7,772 nucleotides of DNA from an uncultured Rubrobacteraceae bacterium (GTDB lineage Bacteria; Actinomycetota; Rubrobacteria; Rubrobacterales; Rubrobacteraceae). Location: NCBI GenBank assembly GCA_902806105.1, contig CADCVI010000142.1, forward strand, positions 1 through 7,772, written 5' to 3'. The position numbers were made by a program, and so were the translations under genes. Positions 1,672 to 6,749 of this stretch are shown in pieces; position 1 is the stretch's first letter, and every line of letters begins with the position of its first letter. Under the pieces are notes generated by a model. It saw nothing but the letters and a program-made list of their open reading frames with translations. It made no database searches and was not told the DNA's origin.

Positions 1672-1923
1672 GATGCGGAACCGTTCATGTAGTTCGGGGA
1701 TTGATCACCGAACGTTGCCTCGGTACAGGAGAACGATCTGTACGCTGTGCAAAATCCAACGGGCAGGGGACTCTGAAGATCCTGCATCATCCGCGCCAAG
1801 CCATGCGCCTACGGATCGGTGACGGCTTCTTCTTTACTACAGGGCAGTGTAGGAAGCATGGCGCGAGGATTCGACTGGCACTATGCTTCATAAGTGTCGT
1901 GTGGTCCGCGGGAGGGGAATGCT
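1672..1923. other. Region without an intact gene, upstream of the Excalibur lipoprotein
   Basis: No frame on either strand shows a recognisable product here. The stretch must hold the promoter of the downstream lipoprotein gene, but no convincing -35/-10 pair is visible. The place where a VapB antitoxin would be expected for the decayed toxin gene (minus strand, 1672 upward) contains only short open stretches with stops and no recognisable antitoxin motif. Confidence 0.4.
1706..1727. repeat. Imperfect direct repeat, copy 2 of 2
   Basis: Second copy of the repeat described at 1348-1369. It is followed directly by a 6-bp inverted repeat, GTACAG at 1723-1728 and CTGTAC at 1738-1743. No role can be assigned from sequence. 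Confidence 0.35.
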
Positions 1924-3159
1924 TTGGGTGCGCTGCCGCTTTTGGAGATATCGAGGTATGCAGTGCTCTCGATGCTTGTCGCTCTCGCGCTGTCCTCCTG
2001 CAGCACCGGGCAGGACGGTCAGGCCGGCGAGGAAGCGGAGCCGCCGCGCGAGGTCACGAAAGAGGTGACGAAGACCGTTACGGTGGCGGAGGCCCCGAAA
2101 GCCCCGGAAGCGGAGAAAGAGGCGCCGGCGGCCCCCGTGCCGGCTGAGAGGCCCTCCGCCGAAATCGACCCCGACTACGTCACGGTTGCAGACGGCGCCC
2201 TGAGCGTCGAGGTCCCTTCCTCCTGGGGCGAGGTCCAAACCGGCGAAGGCTCGGAGGCGGGGAGCAGCTGGTCGGAGTTCGCGGGCGAAGGCGTCGACTA
2301 CTCGCTCACCGCCGCGCCCTCCCTGGACTCCTGGAGCGGCGTTCCCGGCGCCCCCGGCATCTACGCCGTTGCCTCGGCGGGGCTAGCGCAGAGCTACGTC
2401 AACGAGGAACTGGTGGCCGCGGGACCCAACGACCTGTCGGGGACCTGCGAGGCCGGGATGCGGAGCGCCTTCGAGCGCGAGCCCTACTCCGGATTCGTGC
2501 AGGATTGGAAGGACTGCGGCGAAGATGGGAGCGGCTACCTCACGCTTGCCGCGACGCCCCGAGACGGGGAGTGCGTAGTGCTCTTGACGGTGGGGACTGC
2601 GGGCCAGGAGGGGGAGGCAGCCGGGCAGCACGCCCTCGACACGTTCGCCGCCGCCTGCTCCCCCCTCGCCCCCGAGGCGGCCTCCGCCGCAGCCTACGAG
2701 TACAGAGCCGAGACCACGGAGGAAACAGAGGAGTACGATCTCCCCCCCGACGACAGCGAGGAAGAAGACTCGCTAGATTGCTCGGACTTCGCGACCCAGG
2801 AGGAGGCACAGGCCGCATTTGCGGACGATACGGGGGACCCGAACGGGCTGGACCCGGACGCGGACGGTCTGGCATGTGAGGACATGTACCCCACCTCAAC
2901 GCTCGAGCTTGAGCCTGTGCCGCAATACGGAGGACCCGAGCCATACGACGGCGAGGGAACAACGACCGTACCCGAACCGACTACACCTAACCCCGGCGTT
3001 GATATCCCACCGCCCACGGACGGGGACTACGACTGCGACGACCTCACACAGGAGCAGGCCCAGTACATCTACGATCAGAACCCGAGCGATCCCTACGGCC
3101 TGGATGGTCCGATAGGGGAAGAATCCTCCGGCGAACCGGGCGTAGCTTGCGAGTACTAG
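1924..3159 (+). CDS. Secreted lipoprotein with four-Cys domain and two Excalibur-type repeats
   Basis: A 411-residue protein from a TTG start at 1924, chosen because GGAGGGG (1911-1917) lies 6 nt upstream. A GTG at 1894 (421 aa) lacks an SD; GTG 1963, with GAGG six nt before it, would leave too short a signal peptide. A hydrophobic stretch ends in the lipobox LSSC, predicting lipid attachment at Cys26. Then come an acidic, Pro/Ala/Glu-rich spacer (about 27-83) and a compact domain (about 84-245) with Cys175, 198, 217 and 245 that probably form disulfides. It resembles an extracellular domain found in actinobacterial surface proteins, but I cannot name it. After an acidic linker comes an Excalibur repeat (about 285-320) with the calcium-loop motif DPDADGLACE. 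A second diverged copy (about 370-411) keeps YDCDD and ends in ACEY but lacks the DxDxDG loop. Likely role: calcium-dependent function outside the membrane. The gene appears to be transcribed alone. Confidence 0.88.
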   Translation: MGALPLLEISRYAVLSMLVALALSSCSTGQDGQAGEEAEPPREVTKEVTKTVTVAEAPKAPEAEKEAPAAPVPAERPSAEIDPDYVTVADGALSVEVPSSWGEVQTGEGSEAGSSWSEFAGEGVDYSLTAAPSLDSWSGVPGAPGIYAVASAGLAQSYVNEELVAAGPNDLSGTCEAGMRSAFEREPYSGFVQDWKDCGEDGSGYLTLAATPRDGECVVLLTVGTAGQEGEAAGQHALDTFAAACSPLAPEAASAAAYEYRAETTEETEEYDLPPDDSEEEDSLDCSDFATQEEAQAAFADDTGDPNGLDPDADGLACEDMYPTSTLELEPVPQYGGPEPYDGEGTTTVPEPTTPNPGVDIPPPTDGDYDCDDLTQEQAQYIYDQNPSDPYGLDGPIGEESSGEPGVACEY

Positions 3160-3596: not shown

Positions 3597-3623
3597 ATTA
3601 TGTCCTCTTCGGGCATCGTCGCC

Positions 3624-4976
3624 CTAGTGGGAGGAGTGCGGGTCCATATCCTTGAGCTCCGCGGCGGCGACCTCGTCGCCGGTCACGGGGTTGCCCGCGA
3701 TGGCCTGCTGGAGGCTCTCCTCGTCGGTGATAATGGCGCCGTCCGGTATGACGCTGCCCGCCGGGATGGTGAAGGAGAGCTCCTCCCCCTCCTCCAGAGC
3801 CGGGCCGGCAATGACGACATCCTGGCCGATCTCGACGTTATCCTCCACGATGGTGCGGAAGACCACGGATCGGTCCTCGGCGGTGATCCCATTGCCCATC
3901 TCGAGCGGCCCGTGGAACACGACGTCGTCCGCGGAGGTCAGGTTGTCACCGATCTGGATCTCCGTCTCCTCCAGGGCGTGGAAGGTCACCCTATCGTCGA
4001 GGTCGGCGTTCGCGCCTATAACGATGGGAGAGCCCTCGTCGGCGCGGATGGCCGTCCTCTGGGCGATCTGGGCGTTCGGGCCGATGCGCACATCGCCCAC
4101 GATCCTGACGAACTCCTGGATCTCGAAGGGCTCCGCGACCTGCGGCTCCGCCCGCTCGTTGAAGGAGGTGGCCGGGTTCGGGCCCGTAACGCCCACGACG
4201 CTCTCGTAGCCCTCGGTCTCGTAGAGCTCGATGTACCCCTCGGCGAACTCGGCGTTGACGTCGAGGACGCCCTCGCGGAACTCCTCGGTGGAGGCGTCGG
4301 CCTCTGGCAGGGCATTGGCCTGCTCCTGCGTCGTGATCTCCTCGCCCGGCCCGACGAGCCTGTTCTCCGGAATGGTCACGTTCTCGACCGACGCGCCGTG
4401 CAGCACGAAGGCCCCGTTCTCGAGCGTCGAGTTGATGATCTCGGCGTTAAACCCGACGAACGCGAAGTCGCCGACCTGGGAGTCCCGGATGATGGCATGG
4501 TGGGCCAGGCTGGTCCTGTTGCCTATAGTCGAAGTGTCTTCAAGAGAGCGCACGATGATGTTGTCCTGCGCGTTGGTCTCGTTCCCGATCGTCACCTGCT
4601 GCTCGGGCGCGGCCCGCAGGATCGTGTTCGAAGCGACAAAGCTGCGCTCCCCGATCCGCACGTCGCCGAAGAGCTCCACCAGAGGCGCCACGTAGCTTGT
4701 CCCGACGATCGGATTACCAGGCTCGACGCGCATGAGCCCGCCGCTCTCGCCGCCGGTCGTGCCACCCTGCATACCCCCGGTCGTGCCGCCACCGGTAGAA
4801 CCACCGCCAGCGAAACCACCACCGGTAGAACCGCCACCGGACTGGGCCTGTTCCTGCGTGCTAGCTTCCTGGCCCCCGCTCTCCTGAGCCGCCTGCTCGC
4901 CGCCACCGCCACCGCACGCGGCTACCGAGGCGGCCACGCTTGCCGCGAGAAGTGCAAGTAATGCTTTCCGACCCAT
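3624..4976 (-). CDS. Lipoprotein with two tandem gamma-carbonic anhydrase-like beta-helix domains
   Basis: 450 residues; ATG preceded by GAAGGAG (4982-4988) at 5 nt. Residues 1-21 are a signal peptide ending in the lipobox VAAC (lipidated Cys21), followed by a Gly/Ser/Thr-rich linker (about 22-80). Two left-handed beta-helix domains follow, about 88-270 and 280-430, both aligning to Methanosarcina Cam without gaps around the active site. Half 1 keeps Asn135, Gln137 and His159 (Cam 73, 75, 117) but has Pro124, Arg143 and Arg164 at Cam 62, 81 and 122. Half 2 keeps Glu314, His333, Glu336 and His355 (Cam 62, 81, 84, 122) but has Asp325, Asp327 and Asp350 at Cam 73, 75 and 117. Half 1 has a Cam-like C-terminal helix ending in AEGY; half 2 lacks it, and both lack Cam's acidic loop. 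Since His117 comes from the neighbouring subunit in Cam, a full His3 zinc site is possible only between half 2 and half 1. CO2 hydration outside the membrane is plausible but unproven. Confidence 0.93.
   Translation of the reverse strand: MGRKALLALLAASVAASVAACGGGGGEQAAQESGGQEASTQEQAQSGGGSTGGGFAGGGSTGGGTTGGMQGGTTGGESGGLMRVEPGNPIVGTSYVAPLVELFGDVRIGERSFVASNTILRAAPEQQVTIGNETNAQDNIIVRSLEDTSTIGNRTSLAHHAIIRDSQVGDFAFVGFNAEIINSTLENGAFVLHGASVENVTIPENRLVGPGEEITTQEQANALPEADASTEEFREGVLDVNAEFAEGYIELYETEGYESVVGVTGPNPATSFNERAEPQVAEPFEIQEFVRIVGDVRIGPNAQIAQRTAIRADEGSPIVIGANADLDDRVTFHALEETEIQIGDNLTSADDVVFHGPLEMGNGITAEDRSVVFRTIVEDNVEIGQDVVIAGPALEEGEELSFTIPAGSVIPDGAIITDEESLQQAIAGNPVTGDEVAAAELKDMDPHSSH
4753..4832 (-). 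repeat. Imperfect tandem repeats coding the Gly-rich linker
   Basis: Within the carbonic anhydrase-like gene, CCACCGGTAGAACC occurs at 4789-4802 and again at 4819-4832 (30-bp period), and CCGGTCGTGCC occurs at 4753-4763 and 4777-4787 (24-bp period). They encode the GGGSTGGG-type linker after the lipidated cysteine. Such repeats can vary in length by slippage, which would change how far the enzyme domains stand from the membrane. Confidence 0.6.
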
Positions 4977-4987
4977 CTATTCTCCTT

Positions 4988-5092
4988 CTATGCCGCGCAC
5001 GGCAAGTTCTTTGATCGATGGATGGAACGAGGTCCGAAGCATGGGCGGATGTCCGCGTTCGCACGCAGCCGCACGATCTTCAATTCGTCCAT
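4988..5092 (-). CDS. Possible 34-codon leader ORF upstream of the carbonic anhydrase-like gene
   Basis: ATG at 5092 opens a frame of 34 codons (beginning MDELKIVRLRANADIRP) that ends in a TAG whose bases adjoin and partly overlap the GAAGGAG ribosome site of the downstream gene, 11 nt before its ATG. A purine-rich AGGGGTGG lies 5 nt upstream of the ATG. The peptide is basic and matches nothing I know. The position suggests a leader peptide or translational coupling, but short open frames are common by chance in GC-rich DNA. Confidence 0.2.
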   Translation of the reverse strand: MDELKIVRLRANADIRPCFGPRSIHRSKNLPCAA

Positions 5093-5104
5093 GACTACCA
5101 CCCC

Positions 5105-5124
5105 TATATACCGAACATAGTATA
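5105..5124 (-). promoter_or_regulatory. AT-rich patch with -10-like hexamers upstream of the carbonic anhydrase-like gene
   Basis: On the minus strand the patch holds TATACT (5119-5124, five of six matches to TATAAT) and TATATA (5105-5110). Both sit in the most AT-rich stretch of the window (about 5101-5165), 130-150 nt upstream of the lipoprotein start. No clear TTGACA-like -35 is found at 16-18 nt from either. This suggests that the gene has its own promoter and does not depend on read-through from argH. Confidence 0.35.
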
Positions 5125-5257
5125 CAAGAGCGACATTGAAGCCAGGTTAAAATACTCTAATGTGAAGCCCTGGGGAGGCTGGAACTTATCGAATGCCGGT
5201 CGACTTCGCCCTTTGATCCGGATCGATCATCTCCCTGTTCTCGCGCCCCTCGGCAGC
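5125..5257. other. Intergenic DNA between argH and the carbonic anhydrase-like gene
   Basis: Together with the neighbouring sites this forms a 375-bp gap (4977-5351) between two genes on the same strand. A plus-strand frame is open across part of it, but it has no ribosome site, no recognisable motif and runs into argH antisense, so I do not treat it as a gene. I see nothing else in this part. Confidence 0.4.
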
Positions 5258-5289
5258 GCCCCCCTGAGACCAATGGGGGCTATGTCTCA
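5258..5289 (-). terminator. Two mutually exclusive hairpins downstream of argH
   Basis: GCCCCC (5258-5263) can pair with GGGGGC (5275-5280), and TGAGAC (5265-5270) can pair with GTCTCA (5284-5289). The pairings overlap, so only one can form at a time. They lie about 60-95 nt past the argH stop codon, on the side from which its transcript leaves. There is no U-tract. A weak terminator for argH is the simplest reading. Confidence 0.35.
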
Positions 5290-5351
5290 TGCGCGAAACG
5301 TTCAACCTGCTCGCGGGGGTGTTTGTGTGGGCGGGCGAGCGGCTCTTGCTT

Positions 5352-6749
5352 CTAGGCCCCCGCTAGCTCGTCCAGGCGCGCGCGGGCCCTCGTGAGCTGC
5401 GCGTCCACGGAGTCCGGGGATGTCGAGCCCGGGGACCTCTTGTTCGCGACGCTGCCCGCCGGGGTCAGGAGCTTGCGGGGCAGGTCGGCGAGGGCCGGGT
5501 GGGCGGCGGTCAGGTCCTCTTCGGAGACGTCTTCGAAGGGGAGCCCGGCCTCCTCGCAGTGTCGGACGAGGACTCCGATGGCGCGGTGGGCCTCCCGGAA
5601 GGGCACGCCTCGCGCGGCGAGAAAGTCGGCGAGCTCGGTGGCGAGGGCGAAGCCCCCGGCGGCCTCGGCCATACGGTCGCCGTCGAAGGTCGCGGTGCGG
5701 AGCATCTCGGGGAGGACGGCGAGGACTGCGAGGATGGAATCGACCGAGTCGAAGATGGGCTCCTTGTCCTCCTGGAGGTCCTTCTGGTAGCCGAGCGGGA
5801 GGCCCTTCAGGGTGATGAGGAGGGCGTTGAGGTTGCCGATCAGGCGCCCCGCCTTGCCGCGCATCAGCTCGTAGGCGTCGGGGTTCTTTTTCTGCGGCAT
5901 GATCGACGAGCCGGACGAGTACGCGTCGCTCAGCCGGGCGAAGCCGAACTCGGCGCTCGTCCACAAGACCCACTCCTCGCCGAGGCGGCTGAGATGGACG
6001 CCCAGAACGGCCGCGGCGTAGAGGAGATCCAGGGCGAAGTCCCGCTCCGAAACGGCGTCGAGCGAGTTGGAGAACGGCTCCATCCCGAGCTCACCGGCCG
6101 TGAATCCCGGCTCTACGGGGTGCGGCGTCCCCCCGAGCGCCGCCGCGCCCAGCGGCGAGACGGAGGCCGCCTCGCGAGCCGCTTCGAGCCGCGCCAGGTC
6201 CCGCTCGAAGGCCCGGAAGTGGGCGAGGAGGTGGTGGGCGAGCAGGATAGGCTGCGCCCGTTGCAGGTGCGTGTATCCCGGCAGGATCAGGCCGCGGTTC
6301 TCCCCGGCGACCTCGACGAGGGCGCGCATGACCGCCGCGAGGGCCTCCCCAATCCGCTCGGCCGCATCCCGGACAAAGAGGTGAAGGTCGAGCGCTACCT
6401 GATCGTTGCGGCTCCGGCCCGTGTGCAGCTTGAGCGCGACGTCCCCGACGGTCTCGCGCAGGCGGCGCTCGACCGCCGTGTGGACGTCCTCGTCAGCGAG
6501 GGTCCACGCGAACCGCCCCGCCTCGACCTCCTCCAGCACGCTCAGCAGCCCTTGCTCCAGCTCACCGGCCTCCTCCGCCGAGACGATCCCCCTCGCACCA
6601 AGCATCCTGGCGTGCGCGATCGAGCCCCGTATATCGTACGGCGCGAGCCGCGCGTCGAAGGGGATCGAAGCGTTCAACCTCTCGAACGCCTCCGCGGGCG
6701 TCGTACCGAACCTGCCGCCCCACAGGGGGCTCCTGTCTTTTTCGCTCAT
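5352..6749 (-). CDS. argH: Argininosuccinate lyase
   Basis: A complete 465-residue cytoplasmic enzyme of the fumarase/aspartase superfamily. It splits argininosuccinate into arginine and fumarate, the last step of arginine biosynthesis, and works as a homotetramer with active sites built from three subunits. The N-terminus begins with the typical SPLWGGRF. HTGRSRNDQV (109-118) binds substrate, and PGYTHLQRAQP (157-167) carries the catalytic His161. The superfamily signature GSSIMPQKKNPD (280-291) holds the catalytic serine on its flexible loop, and GSTSPDSV (441-448) is the usual C-terminal GGT-P-V motif. Length is normal and no key residue is missing. The ATG at 6749 starts the conserved N-terminus, yet there is no SD upstream; instead TAAACT lies 8 nt before it, which would suit a leaderless transcript. 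argG and the other arg genes are not in the window, so argH appears to be a lone unit here. Confidence 0.98.
   Translation of the reverse strand: MSEKDRSPLWGGRFGTTPAEAFERLNASIPFDARLAPYDIRGSIAHARMLGARGIVSAEEAGELEQGLLSVLEEVEAGRFAWTLADEDVHTAVERRLRETVGDVALKLHTGRSRNDQVALDLHLFVRDAAERIGEALAAVMRALVEVAGENRGLILPGYTHLQRAQPILLAHHLLAHFRAFERDLARLEAAREAASVSPLGAAALGGTPHPVEPGFTAGELGMEPFSNSLDAVSERDFALDLLYAAAVLGVHLSRLGEEWVLWTSAEFGFARLSDAYSSGSSIMPQKKNPDAYELMRGKAGRLIGNLNALLITLKGLPLGYQKDLQEDKEPIFDSVDSILAVLAVLPEMLRTATFDGDRMAEAAGGFALATELADFLAARGVPFREAHRAIGVLVRHCEEAGLPFEDVSEEDLTAAHPALADLPRKLLTPAGSVANKRSPGSTSPDSVDAQLTRARARLDELAGA

Follow-up and report, generated by a model that had tools for sequence, protein, structure and literature searches.

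A tandem gamma-carbonic anhydrase whose two halves keep complementary faces of a putative composite zinc site

Introduction

Gamma-carbonic anhydrases (gamma-CAs) are usually described as trimers with their active sites lying between subunits. Cam of Methanosarcina thermophila (PDB 1THJ, 3OU9) is a homotrimer of a one-domain protein with three sites, an acidic loop and Glu84; according to PMC4519908 its zinc is held by His81 and His122 of one monomer and His117 of the next, with Asn73, Gln75 and Asn202 forming a hydrogen-bond network and Glu62 and Glu84 serving proton transfer. The carboxysomal gamma-CA domain found at the N-terminus of CcmM (3KWC, 7D6C) is likewise described as homotrimeric (PMC12646314). 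In plant complex I a gamma-CA/gamma-CAL heterotrimer has been reported in which two neighbouring subunits make up a single three-histidine site (PMC7447434, PMC7567890). The CAL subunit in that complex is described as having Ala-147 and Arg-152 in place of two histidines spaced five residues from each other (PMC7447434), which by their spacing we map to the Cam H117 and H122 positions and not to H81 and H122.

In this work we analyzed a stretch of 7,772 nucleotides (the window) which encodes two fused gamma-CA domains, each of which has shed most of the half-site that it would not use. Compared with Cam, the tandem protein has two domains instead of one, a single possible site and no acidic loop, and the position of Glu84 is mostly Lys among its close relatives; compared with CcmM, it is tandem and probably exported. 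The plant heterotrimer differs in being built from separate genes, in having a third subunit and in being of CamH type, and since CAL lost another pair of histidines it is a looser analogue than an earlier note on this DNA had proposed, although the likeness of one complete site made by two neighbours stands. A fusion with a single surviving site is also found in CsoSCA, the beta-carbonic anhydrase of alpha-carboxysomes, which consists of fused beta-CA repeats of which only one active site survives; its fold is unrelated, and there one repeat is wholly dead, in place of a single site shared through complementary loss.

Results

The tandem gene occupies 3624..4976 of the minus strand (stop included) and encodes 450 amino acids from an ATG start, an assignment which is supported by the open reading frame, by 731 relatives and by a structure model. 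A stretch resembling a ribosome-binding site, AGAAGGAGAA in minus-strand letters (4980..4989, minus strand), carries AAGGAG 5 bases before the ATG, as read from the sequence. Judged by eye, residues 1-21 (4914..4976; this and all further coordinates within the gene refer to the minus strand) form a signal peptide with a lipobox-like end at Cys21, and a Gly/Ser/Thr/Gln-rich linker of about 60 residues follows (residues 22-80; 4737..4913). Two hexapeptide beta-helix domains make up the remainder: half 1 (residues 81-255; 4212..4736) is a left-handed beta-helix with a long C-terminal helix (residues 228-255), and half 2 (residues 263-450; 3627..4190) begins with a Cam-like N-terminal extension (GPNPATSFN) followed by its beta-helix and is without the long C-terminal helix in the monomer model. 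The short linker between the halves (residues 256-262; 4191..4211) was placed by alignment to Cam and by the monomer model. The lipobox-like Cys21 suggests that the product is probably an exported lipoprotein, and together with the signal-like N-termini seen by eye in at least nine of 11 relatives inspected it points to a probable location outside the cytoplasm. An antisense open frame of 453 amino acids (3600-4961, plus strand) spans nearly the entire tandem gene and most likely owes its existence to G+C-rich codon usage.

The residues of both halves were placed by alignment with Cam letters taken from structure-database alignments. Half 1 retains Asn135 (Cam N73), Gln137 (Q75) and His159 (H117), and has Pro124 at the E62 position, Arg143 at H81 and Arg164 at H122; half 2 retains Glu314 (E62), His333 (H81), Glu336 (E84) and His355 (H122), and has Asp325 at N73, Asp327 at Q75 and Asp350 at H117. 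All residues named in the earlier note were found where it had put them in both halves. The face kept by half 1 comprises the N73/Q75/D76/H117 positions together with N202, that is N135-A-Q137-D138 (4563..4574), the putative zinc ligand His159 (4500..4502) and Asn241 in the C-terminal helix (4254..4256); the face kept by half 2 comprises R59/D61/E62/H81/H122, that is R311-A-D313-E314 (4035..4046) and the putative zinc ligands His333 (3978..3980) and His355 (3912..3914). Each of these features was recognized by its conservation in relatives, and for R59 and D61 of half 2 and D76 and N202 of half 1 the split in invariance extends beyond the residues noticed earlier. CcmM and Cam are the best sequence relatives among solved structures; what aligns with 3kwc, 3kwd and 3ou9 is the early stretch of half 2 together with the later stretch of half 1.

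Close two-domain relatives, here called family A, were collected in two ways. A protein-database search gave 731 matches, of which the best 120 were used, and a profile search gave 546 matches, 8 of them new among the 120 listed, for a set of 128 proteins; a scan of genomes, one for each species, found 66 loci, of which 42 were two-domain (L001-L042) and 24 single-domain. The 128 proteins and the 42 loci may overlap, and partial frames were included and counted as gaps. These 170 relatives come from Rubrobacter, Solirubrobacter, cyanobacteria, Chloroflexota and unnamed sources, and their effective sequence number is about 29. In half 1, the kept face has Asn at N73 and Gln at Q75 (each in 125/128 proteins and 39/42 loci), Asp at D76 (127/128 and 40/42), His at H117 (128/128 and 41/42, with one gap) and Asn at N202 (123/128 and 42/42, with D, S or H in the other five proteins). 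In half 2, R59 and D61 are each kept in 128/128 proteins and 41/42 loci, E62 in 127/128 and 41/42, H81 in 128/128 and 40/42 (two gaps) and H122 in 127/128 (one gap) and 39/42 (three gaps). The few exceptions at kept positions are P0119 and P0125 (T/H for N73/Q75), P0026 (D for E62), L005 (R for Q75) and L028 (S for N73). The three zinc histidines are present wherever they are covered in the 170 relatives, and the free variation at face positions that the earlier note had named as refuting its proposal was not found.

The unused, or dead, faces behaved differently. Histidine stands at the histidine positions of the opposite half in only four of the 170 family A sequences. The H81 position of half 1 is R in 82, K in 22, E in 8 and His in one of the 128 proteins, among others, and L in 28, R in 6 and never His in the 42 loci; its H122 position is R in 81, E in 32, K in 11 and His in two proteins, with no His in the loci. 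The H117 position of half 2 is D in 108 and N in 18 proteins, none having His, and D in 34 and His in one of the loci. The exceptions in half 1 are P0039 at H81 and P0119 and P0128 at H122, and for half 2 the locus L025 is alone among the 170, its second half carrying all three histidines yet having D at both N73 and Q75. No first half with both H81 and H122 was seen among the 170 family A sequences and 120 listed relatives of a second family described below. On the dead faces the residues other than ligands are relaxed, and their loss is incomplete: in half 1, R59 persists in 96/128 proteins and 30/42 loci, D61 in 21/128 and 24/42 and E62 in 18/128 and 3/42, and in half 2, N73 persists in 22/128 and 1/42, Q75 in 0/128 and 4/42 (N73 and Q75 never together in one protein) and D76 in 53/128 and 32/42. 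The locus L025 itself lies in a metagenome-assembled genome labelled Klebsiella pneumoniae and carries a cyanobacteria-like two-domain protein, which is perhaps a binning error.

The same division was found in a divergent two-domain protein of Scytonema (L072) and five other cyanobacterial genomes (L099, L100, L102-L104), which we call family B and whose halves share about 32% identity with those of the window protein (51/157 and 48/150 positions). The set consisted of 120 listed of 505 matches to L072. In their first halves N73 and Q75 are each kept in 113/120 (7 gaps each), H117 in 114/120 (5 gaps, one T) and N202 in 120/120; the H81 position is T in 58, I in 34 and L in 13 and the H122 position K in 116, with no His at either. 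In their second halves R59, D61 and E62 are each kept in 119/120 (1 gap each) and H81 and H122 each in 118/120 (2 gaps each), and the dead face has G in 106 at N73, A in 112 and Q in 3 at Q75, N in 107 and D in 7 at D76, and P in 111 and no His at H117. The predicted structure of family B is poor (pLDDT 63.5, pTM 0.72). The face pattern is accordingly conserved across homologues from three or more phyla and again in the divergent family B, and the occurrence of the same pattern in 170 and 120 relatives rules out chance or misalignment as its source. This bears out the claim that each half keeps one complementary face, and the face-specific conservation supports the further claim that a complete three-histidine site could form only where half 2 meets half 1. 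We read the protein as a single-chain gamma-CA with one composite zinc site at the contact of half 2 with half 1, and put the probability of such a composite metal site at about 0.8; the rival readings considered below overlap with it in part.

The split also reaches the interface beyond the ligands. PMC8000050 gives the contact residues on each side of the gamma-CA trimer interface and describes a salt bridge in which Arg45 of one monomer pairs with Asp61 of its neighbour; we took the AB interface of gamma-PhCA as set out there and transferred it to Cam numbering through fixed offsets from catalytic residues, without superposition. Two positions belonging to both sides and one outside the alignment were left out, as were the terminal extensions because the halves do not share them. 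On the A-side so mapped (the H81/H122 side, 17 columns) half 2 is more conserved, with a mean entropy difference of +1.00 bit, and on the B-side (the H117 side, 12 columns) half 1 is more conserved (-0.77 bit); the remaining 132 columns have a mean difference of +0.08. In a permutation of labels which treats columns as independent, 12 of 100000 reached as high a value, and 668 of 100000 when the eight catalytic columns were left out. Columns S119 (-1.61), A137 (-0.38) and A169 (+0.61) run against the split, and Q37 and P54 are flat. The share of charged residues on the H117-type face is 62% where unused (half 2) versus 9% where used (half 1), and on the H81/H122-type face 33% where unused (half 1) versus 22% where used (half 2). 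By our mapping the Arg45/Asp61 bridge corresponds to Cam R59/D76, of which the Arg is invariant in half 2 and the Asp in half 1 wherever covered; the opposite copies are relaxed (Arg of half 1 in 96/128 and 30/42, Asp of half 2 in 53/128 and 32/42).

Membership of the gamma class follows from fold and residues. The left-handed beta-helix is present, and so in the sequence are the three zinc histidines, divided between the halves of one chain. Neither subclass fits cleanly, the protein combining E62 without the acidic loop: Glu62 is found in half 2 (E314; 127/128 and 41/42), as in Cam and against the CamH pattern, which is without acidic loop and without Glu62, and the acidic loop with Glu84 that marks Cam is missing from both halves, though Glu336 occurs in the window protein. 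Glu336 had been counted in the earlier note among the kept residues; it is present in the window protein but is not a feature of family A, in which the E84 position of half 2 is mostly Lys (K in 74 and E in 37 of 128 proteins, K in 33 and E in 5 of 42 loci), and in family B it is E in 87 of the 120 listed relatives. The best NCBIfam match was the CcmM model NF053794, with 164.7 bits (E 3e-48) where the cut-off is 550; NF040597, a carbonic anhydrase model, reached 132.5 bits, its cut-off being 380. The cyanobacterial genomes G002, G003 and G005, which carry the tandem protein, also hold a separate frame of 567-668 amino acids, which would be CcmM.

The variability at E84 bears on what the site may do. 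A metal site kept for another role, such as bicarbonate or metal binding or a hydrolase or acyltransferase activity, would accommodate it, and the hexapeptide fold is common to acyltransferases, database names of family B relatives include acetyltransferase (as well as carbon dioxide concentrating mechanism protein), and some CamH-type gamma-CAs are reported in PMC7447434 to be inactive. Such a role is nevertheless rather improbable, since E62, N73, Q75 and N202, which in the account of Cam given in PMC4519908 serve proton transfer and the hydrogen-bond network, are kept on the live faces.

Single-domain relatives provided a comparison. In all 21 (the 24 loci minus three from Methanococcoides with an in-frame TAG) R59, D61, E62, N73, Q75, D76, H81, H117, H122 and N202 are kept; these loci were found by a scan which required a RADEG-like or VNxE-like stretch, so that some of the ten residues are partly selected. 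In a tree of split halves from a sample of 25 of the 170 two-domain proteins and 15 single-domain proteins, all first halves fell on one side of one branch and all second halves on one side of another, both with 100/100 support, and in a tree of 15 family A and nine family B proteins the first halves of the two families joined with 97/93 and the second halves with 100/99; both trees are unrooted and built from samples. These topologies fit a tandem protein that arose once, before families A and B parted.

With an A1 profile at E under 1e-100, two-domain matches were found in six of the 39 genomes of the R. marinus order (in two of these the frame is broken, and in a third it is truncated at the end of a contig), and among the matches listed family A occurs in at least four of 292 cyanobacterial genomes (one with broken frames) and family B in at least five. 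Weaker matches to the profile, mainly single-domain, bring the genomes with any match to 37/39 and 220/292. A search of viral contigs with one close query (P0100) gave 15 pattern matches, none of them confirmed. Genome copies with broken or cut frames, and the fact that neither half alone has the full ligand set, could be taken as signs that both halves are pseudo-enzymes in decay, in a protein serving as a structural scaffold. We regard this as very improbable, as the kept residues are near-invariant in two divergent branches and the losses track the face; simple decay is ruled out, since it would not leave near-invariant residues over two branches.

No hexapeptide or carbonic anhydrase family that might supply a third domain, and no complex I family, was matched in Pfam by the 20 flanking ORFs scanned at 14 loci, and five of these ORFs matched nothing in Pfam; other gamma-CA-like frames exist elsewhere in the genome and may be partners. 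The only recurrent same-place neighbour among the ORFs scanned is argH in the Rubrobacteraceae, which lies upstream of the tandem gene on the same strand in the window (5352-6749, minus strand) and likewise in L001, L002 and L005; it is absent from the one ORF scanned beside Rubrobacter L028 and from the loci of other phyla which were sampled. In Oculatella (L008) a gene of the CobW family (4755-5822) immediately precedes the tandem gene, and none was seen in the other flanking ORFs scanned. In the window, the frame at 1894-3159 (plus strand) has a weak Excalibur calcium-binding match in its C-terminal part (E 0.0075, below the cut-off), with a second Excalibur-like stretch recognizable by eye further on.

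Discussion

The explanation that we favour is a head-to-tail fusion of two ancestral subunits, each of which later became specialised. In it, half 1 would represent the subunit giving the third histidine, His159, together with Asn135, Gln137, Asp138 and Asn241, and half 2 the neighbour giving His333, His355, Glu314 and Arg311/Asp313. Where the kept faces meet, one metal site per chain would result, with the remaining interfaces of the ancestral trimer dead. The metal, zinc or possibly iron or cobalt, would be held by His333 and His355 of half 2 and His159 of half 1, with Glu314 of half 2 acting in proton transfer and Asn135, Gln137 and Asn241 of half 1 providing the hydrogen-bond network, and CO2 would be hydrated outside the cytoplasm. 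The ancestral ring of three would thereby have opened to two.

Whether the two faces meet within one chain or between chains is a separate matter, and we consider that the contact is probably made within the chain, because half 1 ends in a helix that continues directly into the N-terminal extension of half 2, and these are, by our mapping, the elements that touch across the gamma-CA interface described in PMC8000050. Half 2 might instead meet half 1 of the next chain in a domain-swapped dimer or a closed multi-chain assembly, perhaps as pseudo-trimers, each made up of three halves and having one live site. Gamma-CA beta-helices are described as assembling into trimers (PMC4519908, PMC7567890), the existence of such rings is shown by the plant trimer, in which one site is live, and conservation alone cannot separate cis from trans. 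We hold an arrangement between chains to be unlikely, however, as the fusion joins chain ends that by our mapping touch across the live interface, the dead faces are more variable, that of half 2 being 62% charged, and the AF2 monomer model (pLDDT 94.0, pTM 0.92) suggests a defined arrangement of the halves in a lone chain, though a pTM of 0.92 does not say which faces touch. The Foldseek and VIA matches mostly span one domain, and the longer rows, to lipid A pathway acyltransferases and GlmU over about 320-380 columns, carry no meaning at TM values no higher than 0.27; the placement of the halves relative to each other is therefore unreadable from these matches.

We infer a monomeric protein, or in any case one that forms no closed ring of three. 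The sequence rules out a ring of like halves with three like sites, because neither half has all the ligands, and a ring of three built only of halves 1 and 2 would hold at most one correctly directed contact of half 2 with half 1; as the unused faces are also more variable and more charged, an open arrangement appears likelier than a hexamer. Some caution is needed, since dead faces can also occur in a closed ring, as the plant complex I trimer with one complete site of three shows, and the open-ring step is an inference here. In that complex the Arg at a lost histidine position is described as sitting inside the trimer (PMC7447434), so a charged dead face alone is no proof of an open ring. 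On balance we lean slightly towards a natural monomeric gamma-CA, with the ring opened to two fused domains and one asymmetric site, which would make up an overlooked exported family in actinobacteria, Chloroflexota and cyanobacteria.

With two subunits fused and most of the unused half-site lost from each, the family is a clear example from nature of how an interface can be subfunctionalised. If our reading is correct it would offer a one-site and possibly monomeric gamma-CA for study, in which a catalytic residue could be altered by a single change at a single position. In cyanobacteria the family would add carbonic anhydrases that are probably exported: in the available part of a survey of carbon concentration (PMC9120777) CcaA, CcmM, EcaA, EcaB and CsoSCA are named, and no such exported tandem gamma-CA stands beside them. 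Searches of the open-licence PMC literature brought up no account of a tandem gamma-CA whose halves share a site, from which its absence from print does not follow.

A separate observation concerns the single-domain Cam genes of Methanococcoides that were set aside above (L061, L062, L066). No account of an in-frame TAG in these genes was found in a literature search judged by titles and abstract openings. All three have it at the same spot in the region of the acidic loop (6247-6249), with good similarity on either side, and pyrrolysine would be the obvious idea for what is encoded there.
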